NCBI GenBank assembly: GCA_030824075.1
Contig: JAVBYJ010000020.1
Coordinates: forward strand, 1-64,000
Direction of reading: 5' to 3'
From: Geothrix sp.
GTDB taxonomy: Bacteria; Acidobacteriota; Holophagae; Holophagales; Holophagaceae
Length of the DNA: 64,000 nucleotides
Shown: piece by piece, positions 4,542 through 64,000 of the stretch
Layout of the letters: every line of letters begins with the position of its first letter
How positions within the stretch are numbered: position 1 is the first letter of the stretch
Position numbers and translations under genes: made by a program
The notes under the pieces: model-generated
Seen by the model: the letters and a program-made list of their open reading frames with translations, nothing else
What the model was told of the DNA's origin: nothing
Databases searched by the model: none

Positions 4542-5522
4542 ATGCACGAGGTTAACTGGGGTCTCCTCATCGTTGTCTACCTGTTCCTGGGCGGCCTGTC
4601 CGCCGGGCTCTTCTTCGCCGCGGGGCTTGCCAACTACCTGGAAGTGGATGGCAAACCCGCCTATCCCCGCATCGCCCGCATGGGAGCCCTCCTGGCCCCC
4701 TGGCCGGTGGCCATCGGCTCCGGGCTGCTCATTCTCGATCTGGGCAACTGGTACCGCTTCTACAAGCTGTTCACCCATTTCCGATGGGAAAGCCCCATGT
4801 CCATCGGTTCCTACCTGCTGACCATTTTCACCGTCATCGCCTTCGTGTACGCCTTTTCATGGCTGCCCGAGGACTGGCGACAGAAGCTGTTCAGCAAGGT
4901 GCCGCCGACCTGGAAGCTGGTTCACCGCCTGAACGTGGATATCTCCGCCCATCGCAAGACCATCGCCATGGTGGGTTTCCCCTTCTCCATCGGCGTGGGC
5001 ATCTACACCGGCGTGCTGCTGGGTGCCGTATCCGCCCGGCCCTTCTGGAACACCAACCTGGTGGCCCAGATGTTCCTGTTCTCCGCCCTCTCCAGCGGCG
5101 CAGCTGCCCTGCTGCTGGCCATGGTGCTCGACAAACGCAATCCCATCGAGGCCCATGAAACCAAGTTCCTCATCACCCTGGACATCGTGTTCATCGTGCT
5201 GGAGCTCTTCATCATCCTGCCCTACCTCATCCACGGGACACTGTCCGTGTTGGCCGTGAAGCAGGCCCTCTGGCTCATCCTGGGCGGCCCCTACACCCTG
5301 GTGTTCTGGGTCTTCTTCATGGGCCTCGGTTTGCTGGTGCCCCTGGGCATCGAGGTCTACGAACTGGCTCCCAGCCTGCTCAAGGGCAAGCCCTTCCATG
5401 GCGATCGCAACTTGGCCCTGGCAGCCTCTGGCCTCGTCATCTTCGGCGGGTTCCTGCTTCGCTACATCTTCGTCTACGCTGGTCAGGCAAGCAGCTTCCA
5501 CAAGATGGGGATGCTCCACTGA
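4542..5522 (+). CDS. psrC: NrfD/PsrC-type membrane anchor subunit
   Basis: This 326-residue polytopic membrane protein has about eight hydrophobic helices and starts with the HEVNWG..VVYLFLGGLSAG pattern typical of NrfD/PsrC proteins. It should oxidise menaquinol in the membrane and pass electrons to the ferredoxin subunit. There are no haem ligands of the cytochrome b type, which sets this locus apart from the second molybdoenzyme locus near 32 kb. The ribosome binding site AGGAGG lies just before the ATG, and the gap to the preceding gene is nine bases. The lumenal loop residues that bind quinol cannot be assigned with certainty. Confidence 0.88.
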   Translation: MHEVNWGLLIVVYLFLGGLSAGLFFAAGLANYLEVDGKPAYPRIARMGALLAPWPVAIGSGLLILDLGNWYRFYKLFTHFRWESPMSIGSYLLTIFTVIAFVYAFSWLPEDWRQKLFSKVPPTWKLVHRLNVDISAHRKTIAMVGFPFSIGVGIYTGVLLGAVSARPFWNTNLVAQMFLFSALSSGAAALLLAMVLDKRNPIEAHETKFLITLDIVFIVLELFIILPYLIHGTLSVLAVKQALWLILGGPYTLVFWVFFMGLGLLVPLGIEVYELAPSLLKGKPFHGDRNLALAASGLVIFGGFLLRYIFVYAGQASSFHKMGMLH

Positions 5523-5546: not shown

Positions 5547-6134
5547 ATGACGCTCGCGCTCAAGGCGGACCTCGCCCAGATCCTCGCCGAAGCCTTTCTC
5601 GAGCCCGACGCCGACCTGAGGGAGGGGATGGGGGAGCTGCTCGACAGCGGCCCAATCCCCTCCTTCGTGGATCCCCTGGGCCGCATGGCACGGAACGCCC
5701 TCGATCCCACGGCCCAGTCCGTGGAATACGCCCGCCTCTTCCTTCATGCGAAGGACACGGACACCATCCACCTGTTCGAATCCGTTCAAGCCCGGGGCCA
5801 CCACATGGCACCGGTGGTACTCGATCCGCTGAAGGCCATCTACGACGAAGCCGACATCCGCCTCCAGGACGACCTGGGCATTCCACCGGATCACCTGGGC
5901 CTGGAATTCGCATGCCTGAGCTACCTCCTGGGCCAGGTGATCGAAGGCGATTTGTCCGAACGGCCGCGGTTCGTGGAACTGGCCCTGCGGCTGATCCGGG
6001 AGCACCTCCGTCCCCTGATGAACGCCGTGGCTGAACAACTGCCCCAGGTCGCCGCCCATCCGTACTATCAGGCGGCTTCGGACCTGGGCACAACCCTTCT
6101 GGCAGAAACCGACAAGTCGTTGGCGGAAATCTAG
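5547..6134 (+). CDS. TorD/DmsD-family molybdoenzyme chaperone
   Basis: The product (195 residues from the preferred start) is an all-alpha cytoplasmic protein with family landmarks: EYARLF near residue 60 and the PDHLGLEFACLSYLL block near residue 115. TorD-family proteins bind the TAT signal peptide of a molybdoenzyme and hold the apoenzyme until the cofactor is inserted. The likely client is the catalytic subunit encoded at 1783. A GAAGGG ribosome binding site at 5535-5540 is directly against the ATG at 5541 but six bases from the ATG at 5547, so 5547 is chosen. No second chaperone gene accompanies the other molybdoenzyme operon at 33-35 kb, so this one could serve both. Confidence 0.83.
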   Translation: MTLALKADLAQILAEAFLEPDADLREGMGELLDSGPIPSFVDPLGRMARNALDPTAQSVEYARLFLHAKDTDTIHLFESVQARGHHMAPVVLDPLKAIYDEADIRLQDDLGIPPDHLGLEFACLSYLLGQVIEGDLSERPRFVELALRLIREHLRPLMNAVAEQLPQVAAHPYYQAASDLGTTLLAETDKSLAEI

Positions 6135-6181
6135 GCAACCCGCTGCTGGACAAAGGCTTGCCCCGCGCCCAGCATGGATTC

Positions 6182-7561
6182 ATGCGCGCCCCCACAACCA
6201 TCCTCCTGGTGGATGACGAGCCGGGTATCCGGCGATCCCTTGGCGAAGCCCTGAAGGATGAGGGCTACCACGTGGTGAAGGCCGAGCGTGGTGAGCAGGC
6301 CATTGATCTGCTTCACAACCCGGACGGTGAGGGCATCCAGCTCGTGCTGCTCGATGTGTGGCTGCCAGGGCAGGACGGCCTGGAGACCCTGAAGCAGGCC
6401 AAGCAGATCCGGCCCGACCTCCCGGTGGTGATGATCTCGGGCCACGCCAGCATCGACACTGCGCTGCAGGCCACCAAGCTCGGTGCCTTTGACTTTCTAG
6501 AGAAGCCCATCGACCTGGACCGCCTGCTCCTGGTGACGGGCAATGCCCTGCGCCAGGCGAGGCTGGAGCAAGAGAATCAGCGCCTCCTGGCCGAAGTGGA
6601 AAGTGGCCGATTCTTCCTGGCGGACAGCCCTGCCATGAGGCGGCTCATGGCCGACGTGGCCTTGGTCGCTCCGACGGAAGGCCGTGTGCTGCTCACGGGC
6701 GAGAACGGCAGTGGCAAGGAGGAGGTGGCGCGTCTCATCCACCTGCAAAGCCCCCGCAAGGGCGCCCCCTTCGTCGAGGTGAACTGCGCGGCCATTCCCG
6801 AGGAACTCATCGAAAGTGAGCTCTTCGGCCATCAGAAGGGCGCCTTCACGGGCGCCGTCCGCGACCAGAAGGGCAAGTTCCGCGAGGCCGATGGCGGAAC
6901 CCTGTTCCTGGATGAAGTGGGCGATATGTCCCTCAAAACCCAGGCCAAAGTGCTGCGCGCCCTCCAGGAGGGCCGCGTGGAACCTGTGGGTGGGGGTGGA
7001 GCCCTCGGCGTGGATGTCCGCGTGATCGCCGCCACCAACAAGGATCTGCCCGGCGAGATCACCCGCGGCCGGTTCCGTGAGGATCTCTACTTCCGCCTGG
7101 CCGTGGTCCCCCTCCGCATCCCCGCGCTGCGGGAACGCCCCGAGGACATCCTGCCGCTGGCTGAGGCCTTCATCAGCCGCATCGGCCGTCAGTACGGTCG
7201 CCCGCCCAAGCACCTGGGCCCCGAGGCCAAGGACACGCTGTTGCGCCATGACTGGCCCGGCAATGTGCGCGAGTTGAAGAACCTCATGGAGCGCGCCGTC
7301 ATCCTGGGCCGCGGCAGCGAGATCGGCCCCCGCGATCTGGGTTCCCTGGCCACCCGTCACATCGCTGATCAGGACCCCTTTTCCTTCCCCGAGTTCGCCA
7401 GCCTCAAGGAGGCCAAAGACTGGTTCGAGGTCCAGTATCTCCAGCGCGAGATGCGTCTCCAGAACGGCAACATGACCCGCGTCGCCGAGCGGGTGGGCAT
7501 GGACCGCTCCAACCTCTACAAGCGCCTCAAGGCCCTGGGCATCGAGCCCAGGGAGAGCTAG
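6182..7561 (+). CDS. Sigma-54-dependent response regulator (NtrC family)
   Basis: The 459-residue protein has three parts. A receiver domain (about residues 5-120) carries DDE and the phospho-acceptor in [12 protein letters not shown] sigma-54 AAA+ domain follows (about 145-380) with Walker A GENGSGKE, the sigma-54 contact loop GAFTGA, Walker [12 protein letters not shown] and the arginine-finger region. A Fis-type helix-turn-helix ends the protein ([19 protein letters not shown]). It would activate sigma-54 promoters after phosphorylation. No partner kinase lies beside it; the nearest histidine kinase in the window is the NtrY-like one near 49-51 kb. Being immediately downstream of the reductase operon, it may control it. 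The start is uncertain: a TTG at 6158 is in frame, but the ATG at 6182 gives the family-typical N-terminus. Confidence 0.88.
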
Positions 7562-7628
7562 GCGTCACGACTATGTGGGGAGCGAATCACAACCGACCGA
7601 GCCAGGACCTGACCACCGGAGGCAGGCC

Positions 7629-8030
7629 GTGACCGACAAGAAGTGGTTCAAGATTGGCGAAGCCGCCGCCCTCATCGGGGTCGGCCCCAAGGACCTGCGC
7701 TACTGGGAAGATGTCATCCCCGACATCAAGCCCCGCCGCAGCAAGGGCAACCTCCGCTACTACCATGTGGACGAACTGCCTCGCCTGAAGCGCATCAAAG
7801 GTTGGCTGGCCGAGGGCCTCACCGTGGCCGACTGCGCTGAATTGTTGGCCCACGGCCACCTCGTCCAGCGCCTGGACCTGGGTCTCGACGCCGACGAACT
7901 GCCCGCCGCCCCGGCCCAGAAAACCAAACCCACCATCCCCAGGCTTCTCCGCACCAGTTCCGACCTGCAGCCCATCCTGAAGGCCGTGCGAACCCTGCAC
8001 GAACGCCTCTCTGCGCCACCCAAACCTTGA
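7629..8030 (+). CDS. MerR-family transcriptional regulator
   Basis: The 133-residue product begins with a winged helix-turn-helix of the MerR type ([21 protein letters not shown]...[25 protein letters not shown]). After it comes a short, cysteine-free tail that ends the protein near residue 133. Without effector-binding cysteines it is unlikely to be a metal sensor. A short MerR of this kind is often grouped with HspR/MlrA-like or generic members; I cannot name its target. The start is the GTG at 7629, preceded by GGAGG at 7618-7622 with a six-base spacer. A longer in-frame reading from 7575 lacks such a site. Confidence 0.78.
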
Positions 8031-8065
8031 CCCCAGGCTCAGGTCGGTCTACAGTCAGAGGTTCA

Positions 8066-8142
<77 letters not shown>

Positions 8143-8220
8143 AATACACTCCTGCAAGACAAGGACTTGGCATCAACCCCACCGAGTGGCATTACAAGAA
8201 ACACACTCTGAGCCGAGACC

Positions 8221-8256
8221 AAAGGAAAAGCCACTCCCATGAGTGGCTTTTCCTTT
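8221..8256 (+). terminator. Terminator after tRNA-Pro
   Basis: A perfect 16-bp inverted repeat (AAAGGAAAAGCCACTC, loop CCAT, then its complement ending in TTTTCCTTT) lies 79 bases after the tRNA. The T-rich right arm and A-rich left arm make it usable in both directions, so it may also end the converging efflux operon. Confidence 0.8.
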
Positions 8257-8323
8257 GGTGCGCGGGGACATGAATGTCCCGGTTGGACCCAAACCAACGC
8301 GGGTGCCAGCGAGGCTTACGCGA

Positions 8324-9808
8324 TCAGGAGACCGGTCCCCCGGTGCTCTTGGCGGGTTCCACGACCGCCTTCACGACCGCCTTGGGTGCCAGGGGGCGCC
8401 CTGGCTGATTCCAGCCACCGCCCAGGACCTTATAGAGCAGGACCAGGTTGCCGTAGGTGGCCTGGCGAAGAGAGATGAGACCCTGTTGGGCGGCGTAGAG
8501 GGAGCGCTGCGCATCCAGTACGCTCAGGTAGCCATCAATGCCGGCGTCATAGCGGGCTTGGGCGAGCCGATGGGTGGCTTCCGCCGCCCGGGTGAGGGAT
8601 TCCTGGGCCGCAAGCTGGTCGTTGAGGCTCCCCCTGGTGACCAACGTGTCCGCCACCTCCTTGAAGGCAACCTGGATGGCTTTTTCGTACTGGGCCAGTG
8701 AGATGTCACGATCGGCCCGGGCTGCGGCGAGGTTCGCACGCCGGGCACCCATGTCGAAAATCGGGAGAACGATCTGGGGCGAAAAGGCCCAGGTGTCGGA
8801 TCCGGACTGGAAGAGCCCGGACAATTCGTTGCTCATGGTACCGATGCTCGTCGTGAGGGAGATGCGGGGAAAGAACGCCGCTCTAGCCGCACCGATGTTG
8901 GCGTTGGCAGCCTTGAGCTGGTTCTCGGCCATGAGGATGTCCGGACGGTGGGTCAGCACTTCGGAGGGGAGCCGCGGGCTGAGATCCTTGAGGGCCGTCA
9001 CGCTGTCGAAGGTCTCCGGGAGCAGGGTGGCCGGTACGGTGGTGCCCACCAGGAGGTTCAGGGTGCTCCGGTCCAACGCAACCATGCGGGTGTACCGGGC
9101 CGCATCCCCGCGCGCCACCTCCAGGCTGATCCGGGCGCGCTGGGCATCAATCTCGGACGTGGCGCCAACCTCGAATCGCCGCTGGATGAGCTTGAACGAA
9201 GCCTCTTGGCTCTGGAACGTCTCCTGGGCGAGTTTCAGGCTTTCGCGATCGGCAGCGAGGGCCAGATACACGTTTGCGACCTCAGAAAGCAGTGTCACCT
9301 GGGCGCTGTTGCGGGCCTGCTCCGTGGCCATGTACTGCTCAAGGGCCCGGTTCTTCAGGCTCCTGACGCGCCCGAAGAAATCCAACTCCCAGGCGCTGAT
9401 TCCCGCGTTGACAGCGTACTGTTCCGTGATGATGGACTGACCTACGCCGGAGACGCTGGCCGGAAGCCGCTGTTTGTTCCCCATGCCGACCGCGCTGACC
9501 GTCGGGAGCAGCTCGGCACGCTGGATCCGGTAATAGGCTCTGGCCTTGTCTGTGTTGAGTGCGGCAATCCTCAGGTCGCGGTTGTGCTGCAGAGCCAGTT
9601 CCAGGACCTTCTTCAACCGTTCATCGGAGTAGAAGTCCTGCCAGGCCAGGCTGTCCGCGGAGGGACTGGAGGTCCTGGCCGGGTCAGCAGAACCCTCCGG
9701 CCAGGCCTCGGGTACTGGGGGCGAAGGCACCCGGTACCGCGGGGCCATGGACACGCATCCCGTCATGGCGACGAGGAGGAAAGCAGGCACGGCTGCGGCT
9801 GGCCTCAT
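8324..9808 (-). CDS. RND efflux outer-membrane lipoprotein (OprM/NodT family)
   Basis: The 494-residue protein is the outer-membrane channel of a tripartite pump. A lipoprotein signal with lipobox MTGC places the lipidated cysteine near residue 18. Two TolC-like repeat halves follow, rich in long helices with Ala/Gln/Arg (for example IAALNTDKARAYYRIQRAELLP and the equivalent RAANIGAARAAFFPRISL). It overlaps the RND permease gene by four bases (the ATGA-type junction at 9805-9808), so the two are translationally coupled. It forms the exit duct for substrates delivered by the adaptor and permease encoded upstream. Confidence 0.92.
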   Translation of the reverse strand: MRPAAAVPAFLLVAMTGCVSMAPRYRVPSPPVPEAWPEGSADPARTSSPSADSLAWQDFYSDERLKKVLELALQHNRDLRIAALNTDKARAYYRIQRAELLPTVSAVGMGNKQRLPASVSGVGQSIITEQYAVNAGISAWELDFFGRVRSLKNRALEQYMATEQARNSAQVTLLSEVANVYLALAADRESLKLAQETFQSQEASFKLIQRRFEVGATSEIDAQRARISLEVARGDAARYTRMVALDRSTLNLLVGTTVPATLLPETFDSVTALKDLSPRLPSEVLTHRPDILMAENQLKAANANIGAARAAFFPRISLTTSIGTMSNELSGLFQSGSDTWAFSPQIVLPIFDMGARRANLAAARADRDISLAQYEKAIQVAFKEVADTLVTRGSLNDQLAAQESLTRAAEATHRLAQARYDAGIDGYLSVLDAQRSLYAAQQGLISLRQATYGNLVLLYKVLGGGWNQPGRPLAPKAVVKAVVEPAKSTGGPVS

Positions 9809-44957: not shown

Positions 44958-47900
44958 TCAGTAACCGGTGATCTGGAAATCATCCAGGTTGAAGCGGGTG
45001 GTGGTGCCGCCGACCTTCCGGAACTCAAAGCGGATCGGTCCCGCGAGGTTCAAGTTGAACGTGGCCGGCGTCAGGGTGGTGGTGCTGCTGGTGACGGCTG
45101 GTCCCGCAAGGGTCCAGGTGCTGCCGCTGTCCGTGGAGTAGTACAGCTCCCAGGTGGAGGCAGCGTCCGTCCCATACTTCGCGTGATTCACCGTGACCGT
45201 CTGGGCGCCCTTCGACCAGTCAAAGGCCATGGTCACGATGCCGTTGCGCACACGCAGGCTCTTGAGGCCCGTCTTGGGATCGCTGGCGCTGGTGCCCACC
45301 AGGGCATCATTCAGAGTCCAGGTGCCCGAGGCGAAGGCCACGTTGGCGATGGCATAGGCGGTCTTGCTCCCGGCTTCGAAGCCTTCCGCCAGCACCGTGG
45401 TGGCCGCCGCGCTGACGCTGAGGAGGAAGCTGCGGGTCGCCACCGCCCCGTCCCCATCCGTGAGGGTCACGGTGATGGTGGCCGTGCCGTCCAGGCCTGC
45501 CACCGGGGCCAGCACGAGCGTGACGGTTCCGGCCGCATTGGTGGTCTGGATCCCGCTGTCCGGAAGCAGGGCGGCATTGTCGGACGTGGCGGCCACCTTG
45601 ATCAAGCTGGCCAGGGTGCGGTCATCGGCCACCGTGAACGTCATGGTGACGCTCTGTCCCGCCGTGCTGGTCTGGTTTCCCAGCACGGATGGATTGGTGG
45701 TGGGAGCCACGTTGCTGGCGAGCGGCGGAATGACGCGGATCACCCGGGTGATGGTGTTGCTCGTCCCCAGGCTGTCCTGGGCGGTAAAGGTCGCATTGAA
45801 GGACCCCGCGCTCGTGTACTGGTGGGCCGTCGAGAACCCGGTGCTGGTGGGGCTTCCGTCCCCGAAGGTCCAGGTCGCCGAGGCGATGGTGGTGCCGGCG
45901 TCCGCGGTCGAATGGGGGGTGGCGGCGCCATCGAAGGTCACCGAGGTGCCCAGGTCGATGGTGGTGTCGTAGCTGGGCTGGATCATGTGGACATTGGGGC
46001 CGGTCACCTGCTCAAAAGGCGTCCGCCAGCCGCGCACATCCACGGTGGCCTTCCAGGTGGGGATGTCCAGGCCAGGGGCGACCGTGGCCAGGTTGGGGAA
46101 GAACTCCAGTCCCGTCAGGGCCTCGATGCGGGCCAGGGAAGTCACATACCAGGTCAGCGTGGAGGTGCTGTTGGTCAGTCCCCAGACATTGGGCATGAGC
46201 ATGGCCAGCACTTCGGGGTGCCCCGGGACCGTCTCATGGACGACGATCTTGTAGCAGGCCTCGGGAATCGCGATCCGGAGCCCAGGGGTAACCCTGGAGT
46301 CCCACCAGACCGGGGAGGCGGGAAACACAGAGCCGGTGTAGACCCAGATCCGGCCCTTGAAGGAGGTCAAACCGTTCGTGGTGCCGCCCTGGGTACCGCC
46401 GATGGCCTCCTCCAGCTTCTGCCAGGTCTGCTGGTTGAACTGGGAAATCTGCGGAACCAGGTTGCTCATGATCGTGGCGTCGTCACCGGCCACCGGGGTG
46501 TAGCGGTAGGACACGTCAGCCCGGGGGACCTGATGCCCACGGTCGTAGCTGTCGGGGTAGCTGGCGCCCCCCGTGTAGATGCCGGTGTAGTCGTTCTTGC
46601 CGACCTGGGGCACTTCCAGCCTGGGATCCGCCTGGTAGTCCCCCGTGGAGTTCGGGTAGGGCGCGTTCACCGGGAAATTCACATAGGCCGTCCACACCGG
46701 GTTCTTGAGGGACTCGTCGTAGCCAAGCCGGAAGGCGCCGTTGGGAGACGTCACAGCGTCCACATGGAAGGAAGGCAGCACCGTCAGGGGACGGCTCGGC
46801 ACGGGAACGGGGTCACCGGCATAGGTGGGAGAAGCGACAGAGGCCGTGGCGTAGACCGTGGCGGTGTCGGTGCTCAGGTTGCCTTCGCTCACGGTGGCCC
46901 AGTAGGCGTCCGGGTTGGTGGCGAATTCGGTGGAGGGCACCGTGTACGACGACGCCGTGGCGCCGGGGATATCGATGCCGTTCTTCTTCCAGACGTAGGT
47001 CGGCGACCCGCCGTTGTTCGCCTGCGCCGACACCGTGAACGTCACCGCATCCGGCGGCTGGACGGTCTGGCTCTGGGGCTGGATCAGGATGGTCGGGGGC
47101 GTGTGGACGTTCAGCACCACGGAGAGCGAAGTGGTCGCCGTGGTCGTGCCGTTCAAGGTGTGGGTGATCACCACATCGTAGCTTCCGGCATCGGCCGCCG
47201 TGACGCTCGGGATGCTAAAGGTGTCCTGCGTGGCGCCCAGGATGGATGCGCCATCCTTCCGCCACTGGTAGCTCAGGGTTCCTCCCCCATCCGCCGAGGC
47301 CACGACGCTGAAGGTCACGCCGCTTCCCTGATCGACGGTCTGCGCCAGGGGCTGGACGGTGATGACGGGAGGGAAATTGACCGCCAGGAACGCCGCCGTG
47401 GAGACCGTGGTGGTGACCGTTCCATTCAAGGTGTTGGTGACCAGGACGTCATAGGTGCCGGCATCGGCCCCCGAAAGGCTGGTGATCGCGTACGTGGCGG
47501 AGACGGCGCCCGGGATCGCGAGGCCCTCCTTGCGCCACTGGTACCCGAGCGTCCCGCCGCTCGGCAGGCTGGCCGTGACCGAGAAGGAGACCGGACTCCC
47601 CAGGGCCCGGGTCTGGCTCAAGGGCTGCTGGCTGATGACCGGGGGCACGTTCACCAGCAGCAGGGCCGCGTGGGAGGCGGTGGTGGTGAAGGTTCCATTC
47701 AGGGTGTTGGTCACCACCACGTCGTAGCTGCCCGCATCGGCACCAGCCACAGAGGGCAAGCTCAGGGTCGCGTCATTGGCGCCGGTGATCGGGGCACCCG
47801 CTTTGCGCCACTGGTAGCTCAAGGTCCCCGAGCCGGACGCCACCACCGAGAAGCTGACCGCTCCGCCCTCGACCACGGTCTGTCCCAACGGTTGAGTCAG

Positions 47901-48347
47901 GATCCTGGGTGGAAGGTTGACCGTCAGGCGGGCGGGCTCGCTGACCACGCTGTCGACGACGTTGCTCACCACCACCGTGTAGGTCCCGGCATGCCAGGCC
48001 TGGGTCGCGGGGATCGTGTAGCTCGGAGCATCCCAGCCGACCCGGCGGCCATCCTTCCGCCATTGGTAATGAAGGTGAGGGGGCTTGCCCGTGGCCTCCA
48101 CCCTGAAGGTGGTGGATTGACCGGCCACGACCGTCTGGCTGACGGGCTGGGTGAGGATGGTGATGTGGGCGGGTCGGTGGTTCTGCGGCCCCCCGTGCGA
48201 GGCGGCTTGGCGCTCGCGGGTTTGCTCATGCCCGGCAGGGTTGCTATCGACCACAGCGGTGCGCGCGTGGGCCAGGGGTGAGAGGGCCAGGCCGCCGAGC
48301 AGCGCCAGGCAAAGGCTCCACTTGAAGGAAGGTCTGAGATTCCGCAT
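44958..48347 (-). CDS. Secreted DNA/RNA non-specific endonuclease with Ig-like and PKD domains
   Basis: The 1129-residue exported protein has a signal peptide. Five Ig-like domains follow (about residues 60-500), each with a YQWRKDG or YVWKKNG core and a DAGTYDVVVTN-type end. An endonuclease domain of the NUC1/DRGH type occupies about 500-745, with active site DRGHQVPRAD and the metal-ligand helix MSNLVPQISQFNQQTWQKLE. Next come a PKD-like domain (TFGDGSPTS), another beta-sandwich (GTATITVTLTDGDGA) and a C-terminal beta domain. It should degrade extracellular nucleic acid for nutrition or biofilm turnover. The start at 48347 has AGGAG upstream; the extension to 48428 is AT-rich noncoding sequence. 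Confidence 0.86.
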   Translation of the reverse strand: MRNLRPSFKWSLCLALLGGLALSPLAHARTAVVDSNPAGHEQTRERQAASHGGPQNHRPAHITILTQPVSQTVVAGQSTTFRVEATGKPPHLHYQWRKDGRRVGWDAPSYTIPATQAWHAGTYTVVVSNVVDSVVSEPARLTVNLPPRILTQPLGQTVVEGGAVSFSVVASGSGTLSYQWRKAGAPITGANDATLSLPSVAGADAGSYDVVVTNTLNGTFTTTASHAALLLVNVPPVISQQPLSQTRALGSPVSFSVTASLPSGGTLGYQWRKEGLAIPGAVSATYAITSLSGADAGTYDVLVTNTLNGTVTTTVSTAAFLAVNFPPVITVQPLAQTVDQGSGVTFSVVASADGGGTLSYQWRKDGASILGATQDTFSIPSVTAADAGSYDVVITHTLNGTTTATTSLSVVLNVHTPPTILIQPQSQTVQPPDAVTFTVSAQANNGGSPTYVWKKNGIDIPGATASSYTVPSTEFATNPDAYWATVSEGNLSTDTATVYATASVASPTYAGDPVPVPSRPLTVLPSFHVDAVTSPNGAFRLGYDESLKNPVWTAYVNFPVNAPYPNSTGDYQADPRLEVPQVGKNDYTGIYTGGASYPDSYDRGHQVPRADVSYRYTPVAGDDATIMSNLVPQISQFNQQTWQKLEEAIGGTQGGTTNGLTSFKGRIWVYTGSVFPASPVWWDSRVTPGLRIAIPEACYKIVVHETVPGHPEVLAMLMPNVWGLTNSTSTLTWYVTSLARIEALTGLEFFPNLATVAPGLDIPTWKATVDVRGWRTPFEQVTGPNVHMIQPSYDTTIDLGTSVTFDGAATPHSTADAGTTIASATWTFGDGSPTSTGFSTAHQYTSAGSFNATFTAQDSLGTSNTITRVIRVIPPLASNVAPTTNPSVLGNQTSTAGQSVTMTFTVADDRTLASLIKVAATSDNAALLPDSGIQTTNAAGTVTLVLAPVAGLDGTATITVTLTDGDGAVATRSFLLSVSAAATTVLAEGFEAGSKTAYAIANVAFASGTWTLNDALVGTSASDPKTGLKSLRVRNGIVTMAFDWSKGAQTVTVNHAKYGTDAASTWELYYSTDSGSTWTLAGPAVTSSTTTLTPATFNLNLAGPIRFEFRKVGGTTTRFNLDDFQITGY

Positions 48348-48803
48348 GGGAACTCCTGAACAGGGGAAGGGTTGGATTTTAAAAATTACTCTAAGGTTAT
48401 TTTTTATAAAGATATTAATTCTTAACATTTAAGACGAAATTTAATCGAACAAGCGAGGTTCGAATCCGCCCCGGGGCTTCCCCGCCACCCCTGGAAAAAG
48501 GCGGCGGCGGGCTCCGCCCTGCCGCCTCGGATCCGCGAGGGAGGCCGAGCCTCCGGCCTGCGCCCTGAACCCGGCCGCAGACCCACGCCAAGCACTCCCC
48601 TCGCCGCGCCCGGACCCGATCGCGGGGAGGCTGGTGAGGACGGCCTTCACGGTCCACAGGACCAGTGTATTCCCAGGGAACATGCCCCCTCCAGGCGCCG
48701 GGTCAGGCCGACGGATGGAGCCATATTCCCGAGCGGGCGTGACGCCCGGATGCCCTCGATGTGAACCTTTGCCGCCCACGTGCGACGGCGGGTGGCCGCG
48801 GGG
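48348..48803. other. Gap between nuclease gene and histidine kinase gene
   Basis: This 456-base gap holds an AT-rich promoter-like tract (about 48375-48430) directly upstream of the nuclease gene, a GC-rich hairpin terminator near 48494-48537, and further GC-rich palindromic sequence (GGAGGCCGAGCCTCC near 48540). No reading frame here shows family features. Confidence 0.6.
48494..48537 (-). terminator. Minus-strand terminator after the histidine kinase gene
   Basis: AGGCGGC (48499-48505) pairs with GCCGCCT (48531-48537), with further inner pairing. On the minus strand the hairpin is followed by a T-tract (A-run at 48495-48499 on the plus strand). It is about 270 bases after the kinase stop. 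Confidence 0.55.
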
Positions 48804-58500: not shown

Positions 58501-59376
58501 TCAAGAAGCAACCAAGTGGATCGGGCCCTCAGTTGGCACGGGGATCTTTAAACCGTCGGAGAAGAACATCACCTCTCGACCCTTGTAACGGTCTCTTACG
58601 CTGTAGCTGAGTGAATATGAAATGTTTCGAAACTTGGTGTAGAGGCCTCGAATTTCTGGCTCATCGTCATAGGATACGATCCATCGAACCCCTTTGAGAC
58701 TTGCCACCATATGAGCGATTTCAACATGGTCCTTTGGGCTGTAGAGACTGTCATAAAGCCTTTTACTTTTAACGAAATAGGGAGGATCGAGGTATATCAG
58801 CGTCTTTGATGGGGCCGCAGGTTGCCATGTCTTTAAAAACTCAACGGCATCCATCCGAGTGAGATTGATTCGGTTCTTAAATCTCGCGATTTGTCGGATA
58901 CGACGGACGAGATCTTCGCGATTGAACCGGGCATCAATTTTCCATTTCCCTGTTTGATCCTTCCCTCCGATGACCCCCCCACTGATGACGCCTGAGCGGT
59001 TGCATCTGTTGAGGAAGAAGGTCGAGAAACCAAGATCCAGTGTTGAGGCAACTGGCGAAATTGATTGGATGTCCTTCTGTTGACTCCAGGTGTTCATATT
59101 TACGGGAACCGTCATGATTCGATCACAGAGTTCCTCCGTGTGATTCAGAACAGAGGCCCAAAAAGCGTGAACAGAAATATTGAGGTCGTTGATGCAGATG
59201 GTTGAAACATAATCGAGAAGTAACAACTCAAGTGCGATTGCAGCTCCCCCAGCGTATGGCTCCACATAGCAACCATCCTGAAGTTTGTTAGCGCGGACGA
59301 TCTCCTTCACATAGTCCGCGAGTTTCCCTTTACCGCCTGGGTATCTGAGTGGACTAAAGTATCGTGGTGAAGACAT
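58501..59376 (-). CDS. D12-class (Dam-like) adenine-specific DNA methyltransferase
   Basis: The 291-residue enzyme begins with the D12-class motif PLRYPGGKGKLADYV, then EPYAGGAAIALELLL (SAM binding) and YLDPPYF (catalytic DPPY motif). It methylates adenine in DNA. Base composition is clearly more AT-rich than in the flanking topA and ybaK genes, which points to horizontal transfer. It is the second gene of a two-gene unit with the ParB-like gene at 59449 (72-base gap). No restriction enzyme homologue can be recognised next to it. Confidence 0.88.
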   Translation of the reverse strand: MSSPRYFSPLRYPGGKGKLADYVKEIVRANKLQDGCYVEPYAGGAAIALELLLLDYVSTICINDLNISVHAFWASVLNHTEELCDRIMTVPVNMNTWSQQKDIQSISPVASTLDLGFSTFFLNRCNRSGVISGGVIGGKDQTGKWKIDARFNREDLVRRIRQIARFKNRINLTRMDAVEFLKTWQPAAPSKTLIYLDPPYFVKSKRLYDSLYSPKDHVEIAHMVASLKGVRWIVSYDDEPEIRGLYTKFRNISYSLSYSVRDRYKGREVMFFSDGLKIPVPTEGPIHLVAS

Positions 59377-59448
59377 CAGAGAGCCTCATGTATTCAGTAG
59401 AGTCTAGATCTAGAGAAATGATCCTGGCTAAACGCATTGTGATTTCAC

Positions 59449-60819
59449 CTATACGCGACTCCAGAGTTCTTTAAAGAACTCCTCACAAGTGTCCCAATCC
59501 CTAACAAGACCGGGGCCATCAGGGTGCCAATGTGGATTATGCACGCTCGTATGGAGATGTTTGATCGAGAGCGGTGAGCCATCAGAAGTGAAGATCGTGC
59601 AAGCAGCATTGATTATGGATTTTTCAGCACCATTGGTAATCAAGTGTTTTTTCGCGCAGATCACTTTGTGGTTGAGCCTCGGCTCACCCTTACCTGCTTC
59701 ATCGGCTAATGCTGATTTTAATTTGTGCTTCTGAATGTAGACATCAAGGCTTAGTTCAAGAAAGACTCTTGCTAAAACAGCAACAGCATTTGGGAATTGA
59801 GTGACTTTCAAATTCTTCAATTCTCTATAAATTTCATTAACGCGGGTCGACTCTATAGGGAAGTTGGTTTTCCTGGGTATCAAAGTGATTCGGTTTTTCG
59901 TCGATGGTGTCGACCCCTTCTTGGCTACCACTGCCTTACCTGCAGCCTTGGGAGAGGCCGCTAATCCTGGCCCCTCCCCTTCAGCATCAAGACGCCGAGG
60001 TTCCGGCAGTGACGCACTGGTTTTGAATTGAGGCGCTATCCGCTTCAGATAGGTCCGTCGGTCTTCTTTTGTATAGACATCCCCAACGCCCACATTAGGC
60101 GACCTGAGATCTTTCATCACTGTATATAGGTTTCCAGCTGCAACCCGAGGATCGATCACGGTATGGAGCTTCCCTTCTACAAGTGACAGGCCCATTGGTT
60201 TCCGAATATCTGGATCCGCAAGAAGACGCTCTAGGTTCGTGATTGGAAAACGATCAAGGATCTCTTCATCGACCTTGTCCTTCAACTGCGTCCGAACGAA
60301 CTCTAGCGCATCGTATCCCCTGCTATTACCTCGAAATCGCGCCGTAGCAGCCCCGGTCCACTCGACAATACCGGCGCCTTTGTTTTGCCCGGTATGACGG
60401 AGTTGGACCCAGTGGTGAGTATCTTCAATTTTCGAGGCCAAAACACAGTTGATGTTGGCGTAATTCCTTGCATCGAACTTTGAAGCTAGTTGTTTTAGTC
60501 GCTTCTTTTGGGCTGCCAGAAATGGAGTGTCCTCAATTCTGGCCGGGTGGGCTAGTAGCTTAAGAGCCGTGATGCGGCGATTTCCTTCAGCCACTATGTA
60601 CCGGCCATCAACGCTTCCCTTAATTACCAGTGTTAGGTCGATCGGACTGGTGCCCTCATGAACAATGTCTTCAGCTAACTCGATAAGTTTCACCCCTTGA
60701 TCCAAACAAATCGCATGAATTGCAGCACGTTGATCCTCAACAGGATCGAATCGTGGATTGGCTACATGCAAGTCGATTGTCTCTAATGGAGCAGAAATTT
60801 GGACATACTTAGGTTCCAT
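59449..60819 (-). CDS. ParB/Sulfiredoxin-type N-terminal domain protein, unknown function
   Basis: The 456-residue protein has a ParB/Srx-like N-terminal domain (about 10-110) with the typical GRYIVAEGNRRITALKLL, then a middle region and a basic Ala/Lys/Pro linker (about 275-310). The C-terminal domain (about 320-456) ends HTSVHNPHWHPDGPGL...WDTCEEFFKELW. Such C-termini occur in uncharacterised proteins coded beside DNA-modifying enzymes; I cannot assign a function. It is transcribed together with the adenine methyltransferase, upstream of it, in AT-richer DNA. A role in DNA modification or phage defence is inference from context. Confidence 0.7.
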   Translation of the reverse strand: MEPKYVQISAPLETIDLHVANPRFDPVEDQRAAIHAICLDQGVKLIELAEDIVHEGTSPIDLTLVIKGSVDGRYIVAEGNRRITALKLLAHPARIEDTPFLAAQKKRLKQLASKFDARNYANINCVLASKIEDTHHWVQLRHTGQNKGAGIVEWTGAATARFRGNSRGYDALEFVRTQLKDKVDEEILDRFPITNLERLLADPDIRKPMGLSLVEGKLHTVIDPRVAAGNLYTVMKDLRSPNVGVGDVYTKEDRRTYLKRIAPQFKTSASLPEPRRLDAEGEGPGLAASPKAAGKAVVAKKGSTPSTKNRITLIPRKTNFPIESTRVNEIYRELKNLKVTQFPNAVAVLARVFLELSLDVYIQKHKLKSALADEAGKGEPRLNHKVICAKKHLITNGAEKSIINAACTIFTSDGSPLSIKHLHTSVHNPHWHPDGPGLVRDWDTCEEFFKELWSRV

Positions 60820-61119: not shown

Positions 61120-61575
61120 ATGCCCACCACGAAGCTGAAGGAATTCCTCGATGCGAACGGGGTGGCTCACGCGGTCATCCCCCACCCGGTGGCTTTCACG
61201 GCCACGTCGGTGGCTGGGGCCGCCCACATCCCCGGCAAGGAGATGGCCAAGACGGTGGTGGTGAGCCTGGACGGGCAGCACGTCCTGGCGGTGGTGCCCG
61301 CCCACCGGAAGGTGGACCTGGAGCGCCTGCGCCAGGCCACGGGGGCCCTCACCGCCGAGCTGACGGAGGAGCGGGCGTTCGTCGCCGACTTCCCCGAGTG
61401 CGAGCCCGGCGCCATGCCGCCCTTCGGCAACCTCTACGGCCTGCGGGTCTTCGTGGAGCCCCACCTGGCGACGGATCGGCAGATCGCCTTCAACGCGGGC
61501 TCGCACACCGAGCTGATCAGCATGGCGTACCAGGATTTCGAGCGCCTGGTCCACCCCCGGCTCGTGGACATGTAG
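61120..61575 (+). CDS. ybaK: YbaK/ProX-type aminoacyl-tRNA deacylase
   Basis: The 151-residue protein matches the YbaK/EbsC editing domain: TKLKEFLDANGVAHAVIPHPVAFTA near the N-terminus, the lysine of GKEMAKTVVV, and FGNLYGLRVFVEPHLA...FNAGSHTELISMAYQDFERL. It hydrolyses mischarged tRNAs. The ATG at 61120 follows GAGGAGG. Its last 82 bases, including the stop codon, recur in damaged form at 63494-63568, on the far side of the AbiE genes. Confidence 0.9.
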   Translation: MPTTKLKEFLDANGVAHAVIPHPVAFTATSVAGAAHIPGKEMAKTVVVSLDGQHVLAVVPAHRKVDLERLRQATGALTAELTEERAFVADFPECEPGAMPPFGNLYGLRVFVEPHLATDRQIAFNAGSHTELISMAYQDFERLVHPRLVDM

Positions 61576-61583
61576 CGCCCGGG
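61502..61583 (+). repeat. ybaK: Left copy of flanking direct repeat (ybaK 3' end)
   Basis: This segment is the end of the intact ybaK gene plus eight bases after its stop. The right copy at 63494 matches it exactly over 41 and 34 bases, apart from a 7-base deletion. The copies frame the AbiEi/AbiEii genes. Confidence 0.9.
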
Positions 61584-61608
61584 GGCCTGCCGCCACGCCG
61601 CCGAGTCC

Positions 61609-61643
61609 CCAGGCACCAGGCACCAGGCACAAGGCACAAGGCA
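61609..61643 (+). repeat. Five tandem heptamers
   Basis: Three copies of CCAGGCA are followed by two of CAAGGCA, in a perfect head-to-tail array directly after the left flanking repeat and before the AbiE operon. Confidence 0.85.
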
Positions 61644-61727
61644 AAGACCCCTTTAGCCGGGGATGGATGGGGATGACGAACCTGGATCAAGGTGGGCCAA
61701 GCTCTATGCACTTTTTGGCTTTGCGTC

Positions 61728-61757
61728 TGTCAGAAAAACAGGGTAGTTTTTCTGACA
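61728..61757. promoter_or_regulatory. Operator of the AbiE operon
   Basis: TGTCAGAAAAAC-AGGGTA-GTTTTTCTGACA is a perfect 12-bp inverted repeat. Its last base is the A of the ATG at 61757. AbiEi antitoxins repress their own operon through inverted repeats at the promoter, so this is the likely site. Confidence 0.72.
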
Positions 61758-62389
61758 TGATCTCCCGGGCTGCAACGACTCCAGCGCCAGGCCCCACCGA
61801 GGCGGCCATCCTGGGGCGCGTGCGCCGATCGAAACCTGGAAAGGTGTTCAAGCCCGCCGATTTCATGGACCTTGCGAATCGAAATGCCATAGACCAAGGC
61901 CTTTCGCGTCTGGTCAGCAAGGGGCTCCTTCGCCGCCTGGGCCGTGGGTTGTACGACCGGCCCCAGGTCCACGCGATGCTCGGGCCCCTGCTGCCCACGT
62001 CGGACGCCATTCGCAAGGCTCTGGAGGGGAAGGGGTCGGCGCTGCGATTGCAACCCTCAGGCGCTTACGCCGCTAACCTTATGGGCCTGTCAGAGCAGGT
62101 GCCTACCCGGGTCGTATTCTTGACGGATGGTGCTTCGCGCAAGCTGAAGGTGGGTGCGCAGGAGATCGTGCTGCGGCGGACCACGCCCCGGAACATGGCC
62201 ACGGCTGGAAGGATCAGCGGCCTGGTGATCCAGGCGCTGCGCCACTTGGGGAAAGCCCACCTGGATGAAGGGGCTTTGGCCACGCTCCGGAATCGCCTCA
62301 CCCCCAAGGACAAGGCCTGCCTCCGCCAGGATGTGGGCTACGCGCCTGCCTGGATTGCCAAGATCCTGCAAGATCTCGCGAAAGATTGA
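61757..62389 (+). CDS. AbiEi-like antitoxin (DUF6088-type)
   Basis: The 210-residue protein has an N-terminal winged helix (EAAILGRVRRSKPGKVFKPADFMDLANRNAIDQGLSRLVSKGLLRRLGRGLYDRP) and a C-terminal antitoxin domain (SGAYAANLMGLSEQVPTRVVFLTDG). This is the layout of AbiEi-family antitoxins of type IV toxin-antitoxin systems. It should repress the operon and neutralise the nucleotidyltransferase toxin. The start at 61757 is preferred because the operator palindrome lies directly upstream. The frame is open back to 61667, where an ATG at 61709 is an alternative. Confidence 0.86.
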   Translation: MISRAATTPAPGPTEAAILGRVRRSKPGKVFKPADFMDLANRNAIDQGLSRLVSKGLLRRLGRGLYDRPQVHAMLGPLLPTSDAIRKALEGKGSALRLQPSGAYAANLMGLSEQVPTRVVFLTDGASRKLKVGAQEIVLRRTTPRNMATAGRISGLVIQALRHLGKAHLDEGALATLRNRLTPKDKACLRQDVGYAPAWIAKILQDLAKD

Positions 62390-62390
62390 G

Positions 62391-63413
62391 ATGCAGCGAT
62401 TCCTGACCCTGGATCTGAAAACGCAACGTCTGGCCATGGAGCAGGCGGCCGCGGCCAAAGGGCTGGCATTCGTGGCCGTGGAGAAAGATTTCTGGGTGTG
62501 CTGGACCCTGGAGCAGCTCTTCCTACTCCCTGAGATCGGCGGTCACCTCACCTTCAAAGGCGGCACCTCCCTTTCCAAGGTCTGGGAACTCATCGAGCGC
62601 TTCTCAGAGGACATTGACCTGGTGGTGGACAAGGGCTGGTTGGGGTTCGGCGGTGAAAAGGATCCCGAGTCGGCCCCCAGCAACGAGAGCCGGAAAGAGC
62701 GTCTGAAGGCTCTCAAAACGGCCTGTAGCCGTGCCGTGAGGGGCCCCATCCAGGCCGCATTGCGCAAGGCTTTTCAAGCCGCCCTTCCGACAGGACGCAC
62801 GTGGGAACTGGCCATGGATCCAGATGACAAGGACCAGCAGACACTCCTCTTCAGCTACCCGCGCCTCGCCACGGATACGGCGGGATATTTGGGACCCTGG
62901 GTGAAGATCGAATTGGGGGCCCGATCCGACATAGATCCAGCCCGCGAGGGGACGGTCCGGTCTGAGGTGGCGGCTGCCTTTCCGCAGCTATTCGATGAAC
63001 CTGCGGTGAAGCTGCGTGCTCTTGAACCTGAACGGACCTTTCTTGAAAAGGCGATGCTGCTCCATGAGGAATCCTTCCGGCCTCCCGACAAACCCCGCGC
63101 CCAGAAACTGGCACGCCACTACTACGATGTGGCCCGGTTGATCCAGGCAGGCGTGGGCCAACGGGCCTTGGCCTCCCCAGGTCTGTTCGAGCGGGTGGTG
63201 GCCCATCGCCGGGTCTACTTCAAACAGACCTGGGTGGATTACGACACCATGGTCCGGGGCTCCATTTGCCTTGTTCCCGATGAAGCCCGGATGACCGCCT
63301 GGGCTCAGGACTACGACGCCATGCGGCGGGAGATGTTCTACGGGACGCCCCCAGCCTGGAGCGAGGTGGTCGAAGTGGTCGCCCAATGGGAAAGACTCTT
63401 CAACCACCCATGA
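62391..63413 (+). CDS. AbiEii-like nucleotidyltransferase toxin
   Basis: The 340-residue protein has the nucleotidyltransferase motif KGGTSLSKVWELIERFSEDIDLVV (G-S-X9-D-X-D pattern), as well as TFLEKAMLLHEE and the ARHYYDVARL block typical of AbiEii/AbiGii toxins. Such toxins transfer nucleotides to target RNAs and stop growth after phage infection. The ATG follows the antitoxin stop by one base, so the pair is translationally coupled. Confidence 0.9.
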   Translation: MQRFLTLDLKTQRLAMEQAAAAKGLAFVAVEKDFWVCWTLEQLFLLPEIGGHLTFKGGTSLSKVWELIERFSEDIDLVVDKGWLGFGGEKDPESAPSNESRKERLKALKTACSRAVRGPIQAALRKAFQAALPTGRTWELAMDPDDKDQQTLLFSYPRLATDTAGYLGPWVKIELGARSDIDPAREGTVRSEVAAAFPQLFDEPAVKLRALEPERTFLEKAMLLHEESFRPPDKPRAQKLARHYYDVARLIQAGVGQRALASPGLFERVVAHRRVYFKQTWVDYDTMVRGSICLVPDEARMTAWAQDYDAMRREMFYGTPPAWSEVVEVVAQWERLFNHP

Positions 63414-63493
63414 TTCACTTGACCCTGGTACCGGAGTCCCTACTCCCGACGCCAAAGAGATGCAGGCAGAGGATCACCGAAGCACGCATCTCG

Positions 63494-63568
63494 CGCACAC
63501 CGAGCTGATCAGCATGGCGTACCAGGATTTCGAGTCCACCCCCGGCTCGTGGACATGTAGCGCCCGGG
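63494..63568 (+). repeat. Right copy of flanking direct repeat (truncated ybaK 3' end)
   Basis: Two blocks match the ybaK 3' end exactly: 63494-63534 (41 bases, as 61502-61542) and 63535-63568 (34 bases, as 61550-61583). Seven bases (CGCCTGG) are missing between them, which breaks the reading frame. This is a remnant, not a gene. Confidence 0.92.
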
Positions 63569-63582
63569 CCCACCTAGACCTC

Positions 63583-64000
63583 CTAGGCGTCCAGGATCTC
63601 CCGCACCTTGTGCAGCAGGCCTGCGCGGGTGAAGGGTTTTTGCAGGAAGGCCCGGCCCTGGGCGGACTGGGATTCGAGGTCCAGGGTCCCCGAGGGGTAC
63701 CCGGACACGAACAGGACCCGCAAGTCGGGGCGGAGGGCATGGATCTGCTGGAAGAGCTCGATGCCGTTCAGGTCGGGCATGACGAGGTCGGTGACCAGCA
63801 GGGCGCACGGCAGGCCGCCGCTCCGGATCTGCGCCACCGCTTCGAGGGGATTGGCCACGGGGACGACCTGGTAGCCGGCTCCTTCCAGCACCCTGGTTCC
63901 CAGTTCCAGCAGCGCCTGCTCATCCTCGACGAGCAGCACCGTTTCGTGGCCCCCCGGCGGATCGGGGTCGGGAAGGGCCACCGTCGCAAGGCCCCCGCCC
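63583..64000 (-). CDS. Receiver-domain protein, probably the C-terminal end of a hybrid histidine kinase (partial)
   Basis: About 139 codons are visible and the frame stays open to the window edge. The receiver domain has VLLVEDE, the phospho-acceptor in LLVTDLVMPDLNGIELF, the conserved SGYPSG and the lysine in FLQKPFT. The lead-in PPGGHETVLLVEDE is typical of receivers joined to the end of sensor kinases, so a larger protein is likely. A GTG at 63981 could alternatively start a stand-alone regulator. Confidence 0.8.
   Translation of the reverse strand, partial: GGGLATVALPDPDPPGGHETVLLVEDEQALLELGTRVLEGAGYQVVPVANPLEAVAQIRSGGLPCALLVTDLVMPDLNGIELFQQIHALRPDLRVLFVSGYPSGTLDLESQSAQGRAFLQKPFTRAGLLHKVREILDA

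Follow-up and report, generated by a model that had tools for sequence, protein, structure and literature searches.

A probable insertion with long target duplication: AbiE toxin-antitoxin genes between two copies of the ybaK end in Geothrix

A locus of Geothrix sp. (Acidobacteriota) raises in compact form the question of how small defence modules that lack mobility genes travel. We analysed a window of 64,000 nucleotides (nt), that is, the whole stretch from position 1 to 64,000 on the forward strand of contig JAVBYJ010000020.1 (assembly GCA_030824075.1), in which the two genes of an AbiE type IV toxin-antitoxin operon stand between two copies of the 3' end of ybaK, a gene for an aminoacyl-tRNA editing domain protein. 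By what route did the operon arrive there, and why is the gene end present twice? The analysis shows directly that the ybaK end is duplicated, that this duplication has a limited distribution, that the cassette has diverged little and that unrelated AbiE loci are arranged in a similar way. We consider it rather probable that the operon came into the chromosome of Geothrix as part of a 1.9-kb (approximate length) cassette lacking a mobility gene of its own, and that the target end was duplicated, most likely along a homology-assisted route. Judged by its sequence, the arrangement at ybaK is a putative insertion with long target duplication, the target being the end of a gene. Two Geothrix species share it, and some unrelated AbiE loci show an echo of it.

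The ybaK end in two copies and in two species

The features of the locus are given below in window coordinates; G000 denotes the genome analysed here and G030 a sister genome.

61120..61575, + strand: ybaK, aminoacyl-tRNA editing domain protein, its 3' end being the target (Pfam PF04073 tRNA_edit, 84 bits)
61502..61583, + strand: direct repeat, left copy, 82 nt, comprising the last 74 nt of ybaK including the stop codon, plus 8 nt
61609..61643, + strand: 7-nt tandem array, 5 copies, absent in G030
61728..61757, no strand assigned: candidate AbiEi operator, a palindrome that overlaps the start codon of abiEi and has 12-nt arms (61728-61739 and 61746-61757)
61757..62389, + strand: abiEi, predicted antitoxin/repressor, 210 amino acids (aa) (Pfam DUF6088 144 bits, AbiEi_4 29 bits; PADLOC AbiEi)
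62391..63413, + strand: abiEii, predicted nucleotidyltransferase toxin, 340 aa (Pfam AbiEii 134 bits; PADLOC AbiEii 8.6e-98)
63414..63493, + strand: right end of the cassette, 80 nt, 77/80 identical in G030
63494..63568, + strand: direct repeat, right copy, 75 nt, an orphan ybaK end with a 7-nt deletion
63583..63999, - strand: hybrid histidine kinase-receiver gene, its C-terminal receiver portion, flanking the insertion on the right (Pfam Response_reg)

An earlier note on this DNA had claimed that the last 82 bases of ybaK recur after the AbiEii gene, exact except for a 7-base deletion, and both alignment and a genome search confirm this. The copies match over 41 nt in their left part and 35 nt in their right part, the single 7-nt deletion in the right copy being the sole difference, and the match ends abruptly on both sides with no further extension. 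A search of the whole genome (2.98 Mb in 85 contigs) with the 82-nt query returned only these two sites. The ybaK gene is intact at the left copy, and the right copy is a non-coding remnant. Between the copies of G000 we found only AbiEi and AbiEii, with no transposase and, as the note had stated, no integrase, and likewise no site-specific recombinase was found between those of G030. The note's inventory of this interval (the gene pair, the array and an operator) was also correct as to contents, except that the 7-nt array does not occur in G030 and is therefore not part of the cassette. No inverted repeats were found at the cassette ends beyond those inherent in the repeat itself, and the 80-nt right end had no good match in other genomes of the order.

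AbiEi matched DUF6088 (4e-42) and AbiEi_4 (1.3e-6), as expected of a family antitoxin with a DNA-binding domain, and AbiEii matched the Pfam AbiEii family (1.1e-38). Only 1 nt separates the abiEi stop from the abiEii start. The translation of AbiEii contains GG followed, after 15 residues, by DID, in agreement with the core of the motif hG[G/S]x15DhD (PMC3985639), although a lysine precedes the GG. The palindrome is likely the AbiEi operator, since a similar one precedes abiEi in G030 and in two other genomes of the genus, G036 and G040. Neither protein had a sequence match among solved structures. AbiE is recorded on plasmids in 399 records.

The sister genome G030 shares about 90-93% identity with G000. 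The alignment of the two is continuous from ybaK up to and including the right repeat copy, and the junctions are the same. The right copy of G030 is without the 7-nt deletion, and the mutual similarity of its two copies extends beyond the stop codon, over 155 columns at 82.6% identity. Between the two genomes, 344/382 positions are identical in the ybaK body, 71/74 in the left copy and 140/160 in the intergenic stretch between ybaK and abiEi, and abiEi and abiEii are about 97% identical. Synonymous differences were found at 9/171 sites in AbiEi (synonymous divergence, dS, 0.055) and 17/246 in AbiEii (dS 0.073), compared with 21/115 in ybaK (dS 0.209) and 124/558 in topA (dS 0.265). The lower divergence of AbiE is significant against both topA (Fisher p 1e-12) and ybaK (p 3e-4). 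Intermediate values (dS 0.144) were obtained for a metallo-beta-lactamase-like gene beyond the right flank and for the gene at 46998-48428. As AbiE dS lies below that of topA and ybaK, the cassette or its alleles moved after the species split. By this measure the two species' AbiE genes separated more recently than did most of the sequence around them, and the cassette is younger than its surroundings, at least in the AbiE genes. The earlier claim that a unit of about 2 kb moved by using the end of a housekeeping gene agrees with this low divergence, with the reservation that possibly only the AbiE alleles moved.

The repeats themselves carry information on the origin of the second copy. At two variable sites, both copies within a genome have the same base and the two genomes differ, a pattern expected from duplication of the host's own ybaK end or from gene conversion between the copies. 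We considered and rejected a single crossover within the repeat as a means of direct exchange between G000 and G030, because it does not produce the observed alleles; these call for gene conversion, for a duplication derived from the host or for a third donor. The earlier note had pictured an element that inserts at the end of a gene and restores it. Insertion at the ybaK end is upheld, and the imported replacement end is less apt, since genome-specific alleles in both copies fit host duplication or gene conversion better.

Distribution in the genus and framing repeats at other AbiE loci

Among 47 genomes of the genus, ybaK was found in 32, and G000 and G030 alone showed a second, partial copy of its end. 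No extra partial end occurs by the 32 other ybaK genes of 30 genomes, within fetched flanks of 0.4-7 kb. One genome (G012) contains a second, whole ybaK paralogue. Two further matches to the ybaK end (G008:C1:206485 and G017:C130:15659) were rejected as chance-like fragments in unrelated sequence. AbiEii was identified in 6/47 genomes and stands at ybaK only in G000 and G030; in G036 and G040, whose AbiE relatives have 77% identity, no repeat frames the genes and ybaK does not adjoin them. No relative was found to have both copies without AbiE, the arrangement that would have spoken against the earlier note. Other cargo at the ybaK end, for which the note had advised a search, was not found in the genus. 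The E. coli homologues gave no match for a comparison of filled and empty sites.

The note had further anticipated an empty site in which one copy of the repeat runs directly into the receiver gene. One genome, G028, agrees with this only in part: about 40 nt of the ybaK end directly adjoins the same kinase-receiver gene, with the following dehydrogenase gene also kept and without AbiE, and the ybaK body is missing. By eye the remnant looks like the second ybaK paralogue type, and the contig starts nearby. G028 supports the view that the ybaK end beside the kinase gene may be the older junction in the G000 lineage. In this genome (L095:519-557) ybaK has shrunk to its last dozen codons, and no ybaK body was found elsewhere in it.

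We surveyed 126 AbiE loci, comprising 80 loci of AbiEii relatives from many phyla, 40 from the phylum and order and 6 genus loci. After removal of one duplicate, 113 loci had enough flanking sequence to be testable. Framing was defined as a direct repeat linking sequence upstream of abiEi with sequence downstream of abiEii; inverted repeats and windows shifted by 2.8 kb served as controls. In a first look, 10/71 loci were framed (1/71 inverted, 3/56 shifted). In the full set, repeats of at least 28 bp and at least 80% identity framed AbiE at 18/113 loci, compared with 0/113 inverted and 4/105 shifted. For repeats of at least 70 bp present in exactly two copies in the locus, the count was 9/113 (0/113 inverted, 0/105 shifted), or 7/111 when the two Geothrix loci were left out (p 0.014 against either control); without the copy-number rule it was 14/113, compared with 2/105 shifted. 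The position of the repeats points the same way. Of 21 two-copy repeat pairs of at least 70 bp, ten frame AbiE where random placement predicts 1.85, and 8/19 do so without Geothrix (1.78 expected, P 3.5e-5). Counted by locus and again without Geothrix, the figures are 7/11 against 1.0, or 6/10 against 0.93 when loci L186 and L191 are treated as one. Repeat length varies from locus to locus between 29 and 325 bp.

Several of the framed loci resemble the one in Geothrix. In a metagenome-assembled genome (MAG) of Opitutus, AbiE is framed by the last 325 bp of clpB at 91% identity (L209:3983-6411); the intact clpB (6087-8879, with the ClpB C-terminal domain) ends at the right copy, and the orphan end lies to the left of AbiE. 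A 302-bp repeat of 98% identity frames AbiE together with a RadC-like gene at L294 (G312), and at L204, from a Legionellales MAG, the repeat is the end of an integrase-like gene and occurs in three copies. Two deltaproteobacterial MAGs (L186:3969-6418 and L191:4074-6221) share the same AbiE, both repeats and about 86 bp to the left in otherwise different contexts, so that this unit has moved. The occurrence of similar cassettes between long direct repeats in unrelated bacteria suggests a form of integrase-free insertion that would duplicate its landing site.

Other arrangements were also observed. At L309 (G078) AbiE lies between partial copies of a multi-copy gene, with a RhuM-family gene just outside, and at L311 (G202) partial copies of that gene flank a RhuM-family gene and AbiE, each separately. 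A perfect 29-bp repeat frames AbiE in a Coriobacteriales locus (L217:4248-4276 and 6048-6076), and we take it to resemble a XerC/XerD dif site. In a Clostridia MAG (L249:2767-2799 and 4754-4786), a perfect 33-bp terminator-like hairpin flanks AbiE and lies at the ends of two neighbouring genes.

Neighbouring genes

To the right of the cassette, the earlier note had placed a receiver-domain gene. That domain is in fact the C-terminal end of a longer protein, a hybrid histidine kinase-receiver of 549 aa, which extends past the window end (G000:C45:63586-65232). Farther to the right follow an iron-type alcohol dehydrogenase-like gene and then a secreted metallo-beta-lactamase-like gene with Ig-like repeats, both named by eye. 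The latter (G000:C45:66571-68403, just beyond the window) was found in 2/47 genus genomes, G000 and G030, the same pair that has AbiE at ybaK. To the left, between topA and ybaK, the window encodes a PD-Lambda-5 defence pair on the - strand (58501-60819; PADLOC PD-Lambda-5_A 3e-120, PD-Lambda-5_B 1.8e-120), which has no convincing framing repeats. With PD-Lambda-5 upstream and AbiE downstream, a defence system thus stands on either side of ybaK in this genome. Both the topA-ybaK interval and the sequence 3' of ybaK are variable across the genus. No integrase was detected among the proteins scanned between topA and the kinase-receiver gene.

Origin of the duplication and comparison with known systems

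We propose that incoming DNA bearing a ybaK end would have paired with the ybaK end of the host, a recombination step that would leave the end in duplicate. Entry may have occurred by a single crossover of a circle, should one have formed, or by homology on one side and an illegitimate join on the other, a route by which linear DNA is known to enter (PMC3240628). The right copy would have lost its 7 nt after insertion. Recombination between the copies would keep them alike, and could also release the cassette and insert it again. Finally, AbiE might hold itself in place by penalizing cells that lose the cassette, as an addiction module would. More generally, and tentatively, AbiE operons may be mobile in their own right, entering at gene ends without an integrase, duplicating the target over tens to hundreds of bp, and using the repeats to leave, re-enter or cross species by ordinary recombination while the toxin enforces retention.

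A number of observations weigh against insertion with duplication of the target. An older insertion may have been followed much later by an exchange of the AbiE genes, as the left intergenic stretch (140/160) is more diverged than AbiE with its dS of about 0.06. No strain was found in which an intact ybaK runs straight into the same right flank, and G030 is without the kinase-receiver gene, other sequence following its right copy. In the survey, 95/113 AbiE loci show no framing repeat. Four loci (L248, L290, L313 and L322) were set aside because their repeats lie in multi-copy sequence, and the repeat at L309 and L311 comes from a gene that occurs several times within their acidobacterial family, which weakens these two loci, although both were retained in the counts. 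The survey thresholds were chosen after the first look, and its numbers therefore guide the interpretation and do not prove it.

The first of these points leads to the alternative of a single older insertion, made before the lineages of G000 and G030 diverged, followed by exchange of AbiE between them through homologous recombination and by gene conversion that kept the ends alike, with AbiE itself not favouring duplication. The identical junctions of the two genomes and the greater divergence of the stretch to the left of AbiE are in its favour. It would explain neither the origin of the duplication nor the excess of framing repeats at other AbiE loci over the controls, and we regard it as a possible but doubtful account, compatible with the proposed insertion with target duplication. 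We think it unlikely that the locus is the relic of a tyrosine-recombinase island that inserted at the ybaK 3' end, carried a replacement end and later lost all but AbiE. Gene 3' ends are indeed common attachment sites of integrase-bearing islands, such as SGI1 at trmE (PMC8409611), and at L204 it is an integrase-like gene whose own end is repeated. However, the repeats are long and differ in length between loci (29-325 bp), the scan from topA to the kinase-receiver gene contained no integrase, and the same AbiE pair and right end occur without one in both G000 and G030, so that the loss of the integrase would have to predate both.

A purely local origin seems to us very unlikely; in this reading AbiE already followed ybaK, and slippage, or tandem duplication plus deletion, placed a copy of the ybaK end on the far side of AbiE. 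A two-step duplication and deletion can yield the same pattern and the flanks are variable in the genus, but two extra events are required, no genus genome was found with AbiE behind ybaK and a single ybaK end, and long repeats frame AbiE again at loci unrelated to this one. Misassembly of a metagenome bin has the least to recommend it and is hardly credible: the record of G030 describes a MAG, the G000 assembly has 85 contigs and short repeats can be misassembled, but the arrangement occurs in two separate genomes, at about 90-93% identity, each with different alleles. We retain insertion with duplication of the ybaK end as the preferred interpretation.

With respect to known systems, the operon resembles the AbiE type IV toxin-antitoxin and abortive infection system, which acts in phage defence, as described in PMC3985639, where AbiE is bicistronic (abiEi-abiEii), AbiEii carries the motif hGGx15DhD, inverted repeats lie at the promoter and a plasmid was stabilized in the experimental case. 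Gene order, the core of the AbiEii nucleotidyltransferase motif and the promoter inverted repeats agree. Unlike the AbiE of that report, AbiEi here belongs to the DUF6088 branch, and the arms of the operator palindrome lie 6 nt apart and overlap the start codon, whereas two arms 27 nt apart are given there for Streptococcus agalactiae AbiE. The junction at a gene end with the host gene left intact recalls integrase islands at gene 3' ends; SGI1, for example, is a genomic island that sits at trmE (PMC8409611). In contrast to islands of that type, the Geothrix cassette is about 2 kb long, has long repeats and lacks an integrase. Because none lies between the copies in either G000 or G030, we do not consider it an integrase-type island.

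The closest counterpart, reported from Helicobacter pylori for restriction-modification genes, is the insertion with long target duplication, in which the duplications are on a scale of 100 bp (Nobusato et al. 2000, Gene 259:99, as cited in PMC1643837, PMC3874152 and PMC3031569). In both cases a small host-attacking gene complex lies between long, variable direct copies of its target, without transposase or integrase. The long repeats are present here in G000 (82/75 nt) and in G030 (155 columns at 82.6%), and relatives without the insert have a single target copy, with no extra partial end in the fetched flanks of 30 genomes. In the literature located, part of it available as extracts, we found no description of long target duplication for AbiE or another toxin-antitoxin pair, and nothing on Geothrix together with toxin-antitoxin systems. 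The locus departs from the class as described in its target, the end of a housekeeping gene, and in its cargo, which is a nucleotidyltransferase toxin-antitoxin pair in place of restriction-modification genes. Since AbiE is not known to cut DNA, we argue that the signature would reflect recombination and selection for retention and not restriction cleavage. If this is true, long target duplication would be a general trait of self-retaining defence cassettes and not a product of restriction enzymes cutting DNA, and long direct repeats of a gene end around a two-gene addiction module would be a simple signature that can be searched for in any genome. Given the different cargo, we place the Geothrix AbiE locus as a variant of insertion with long target duplication.

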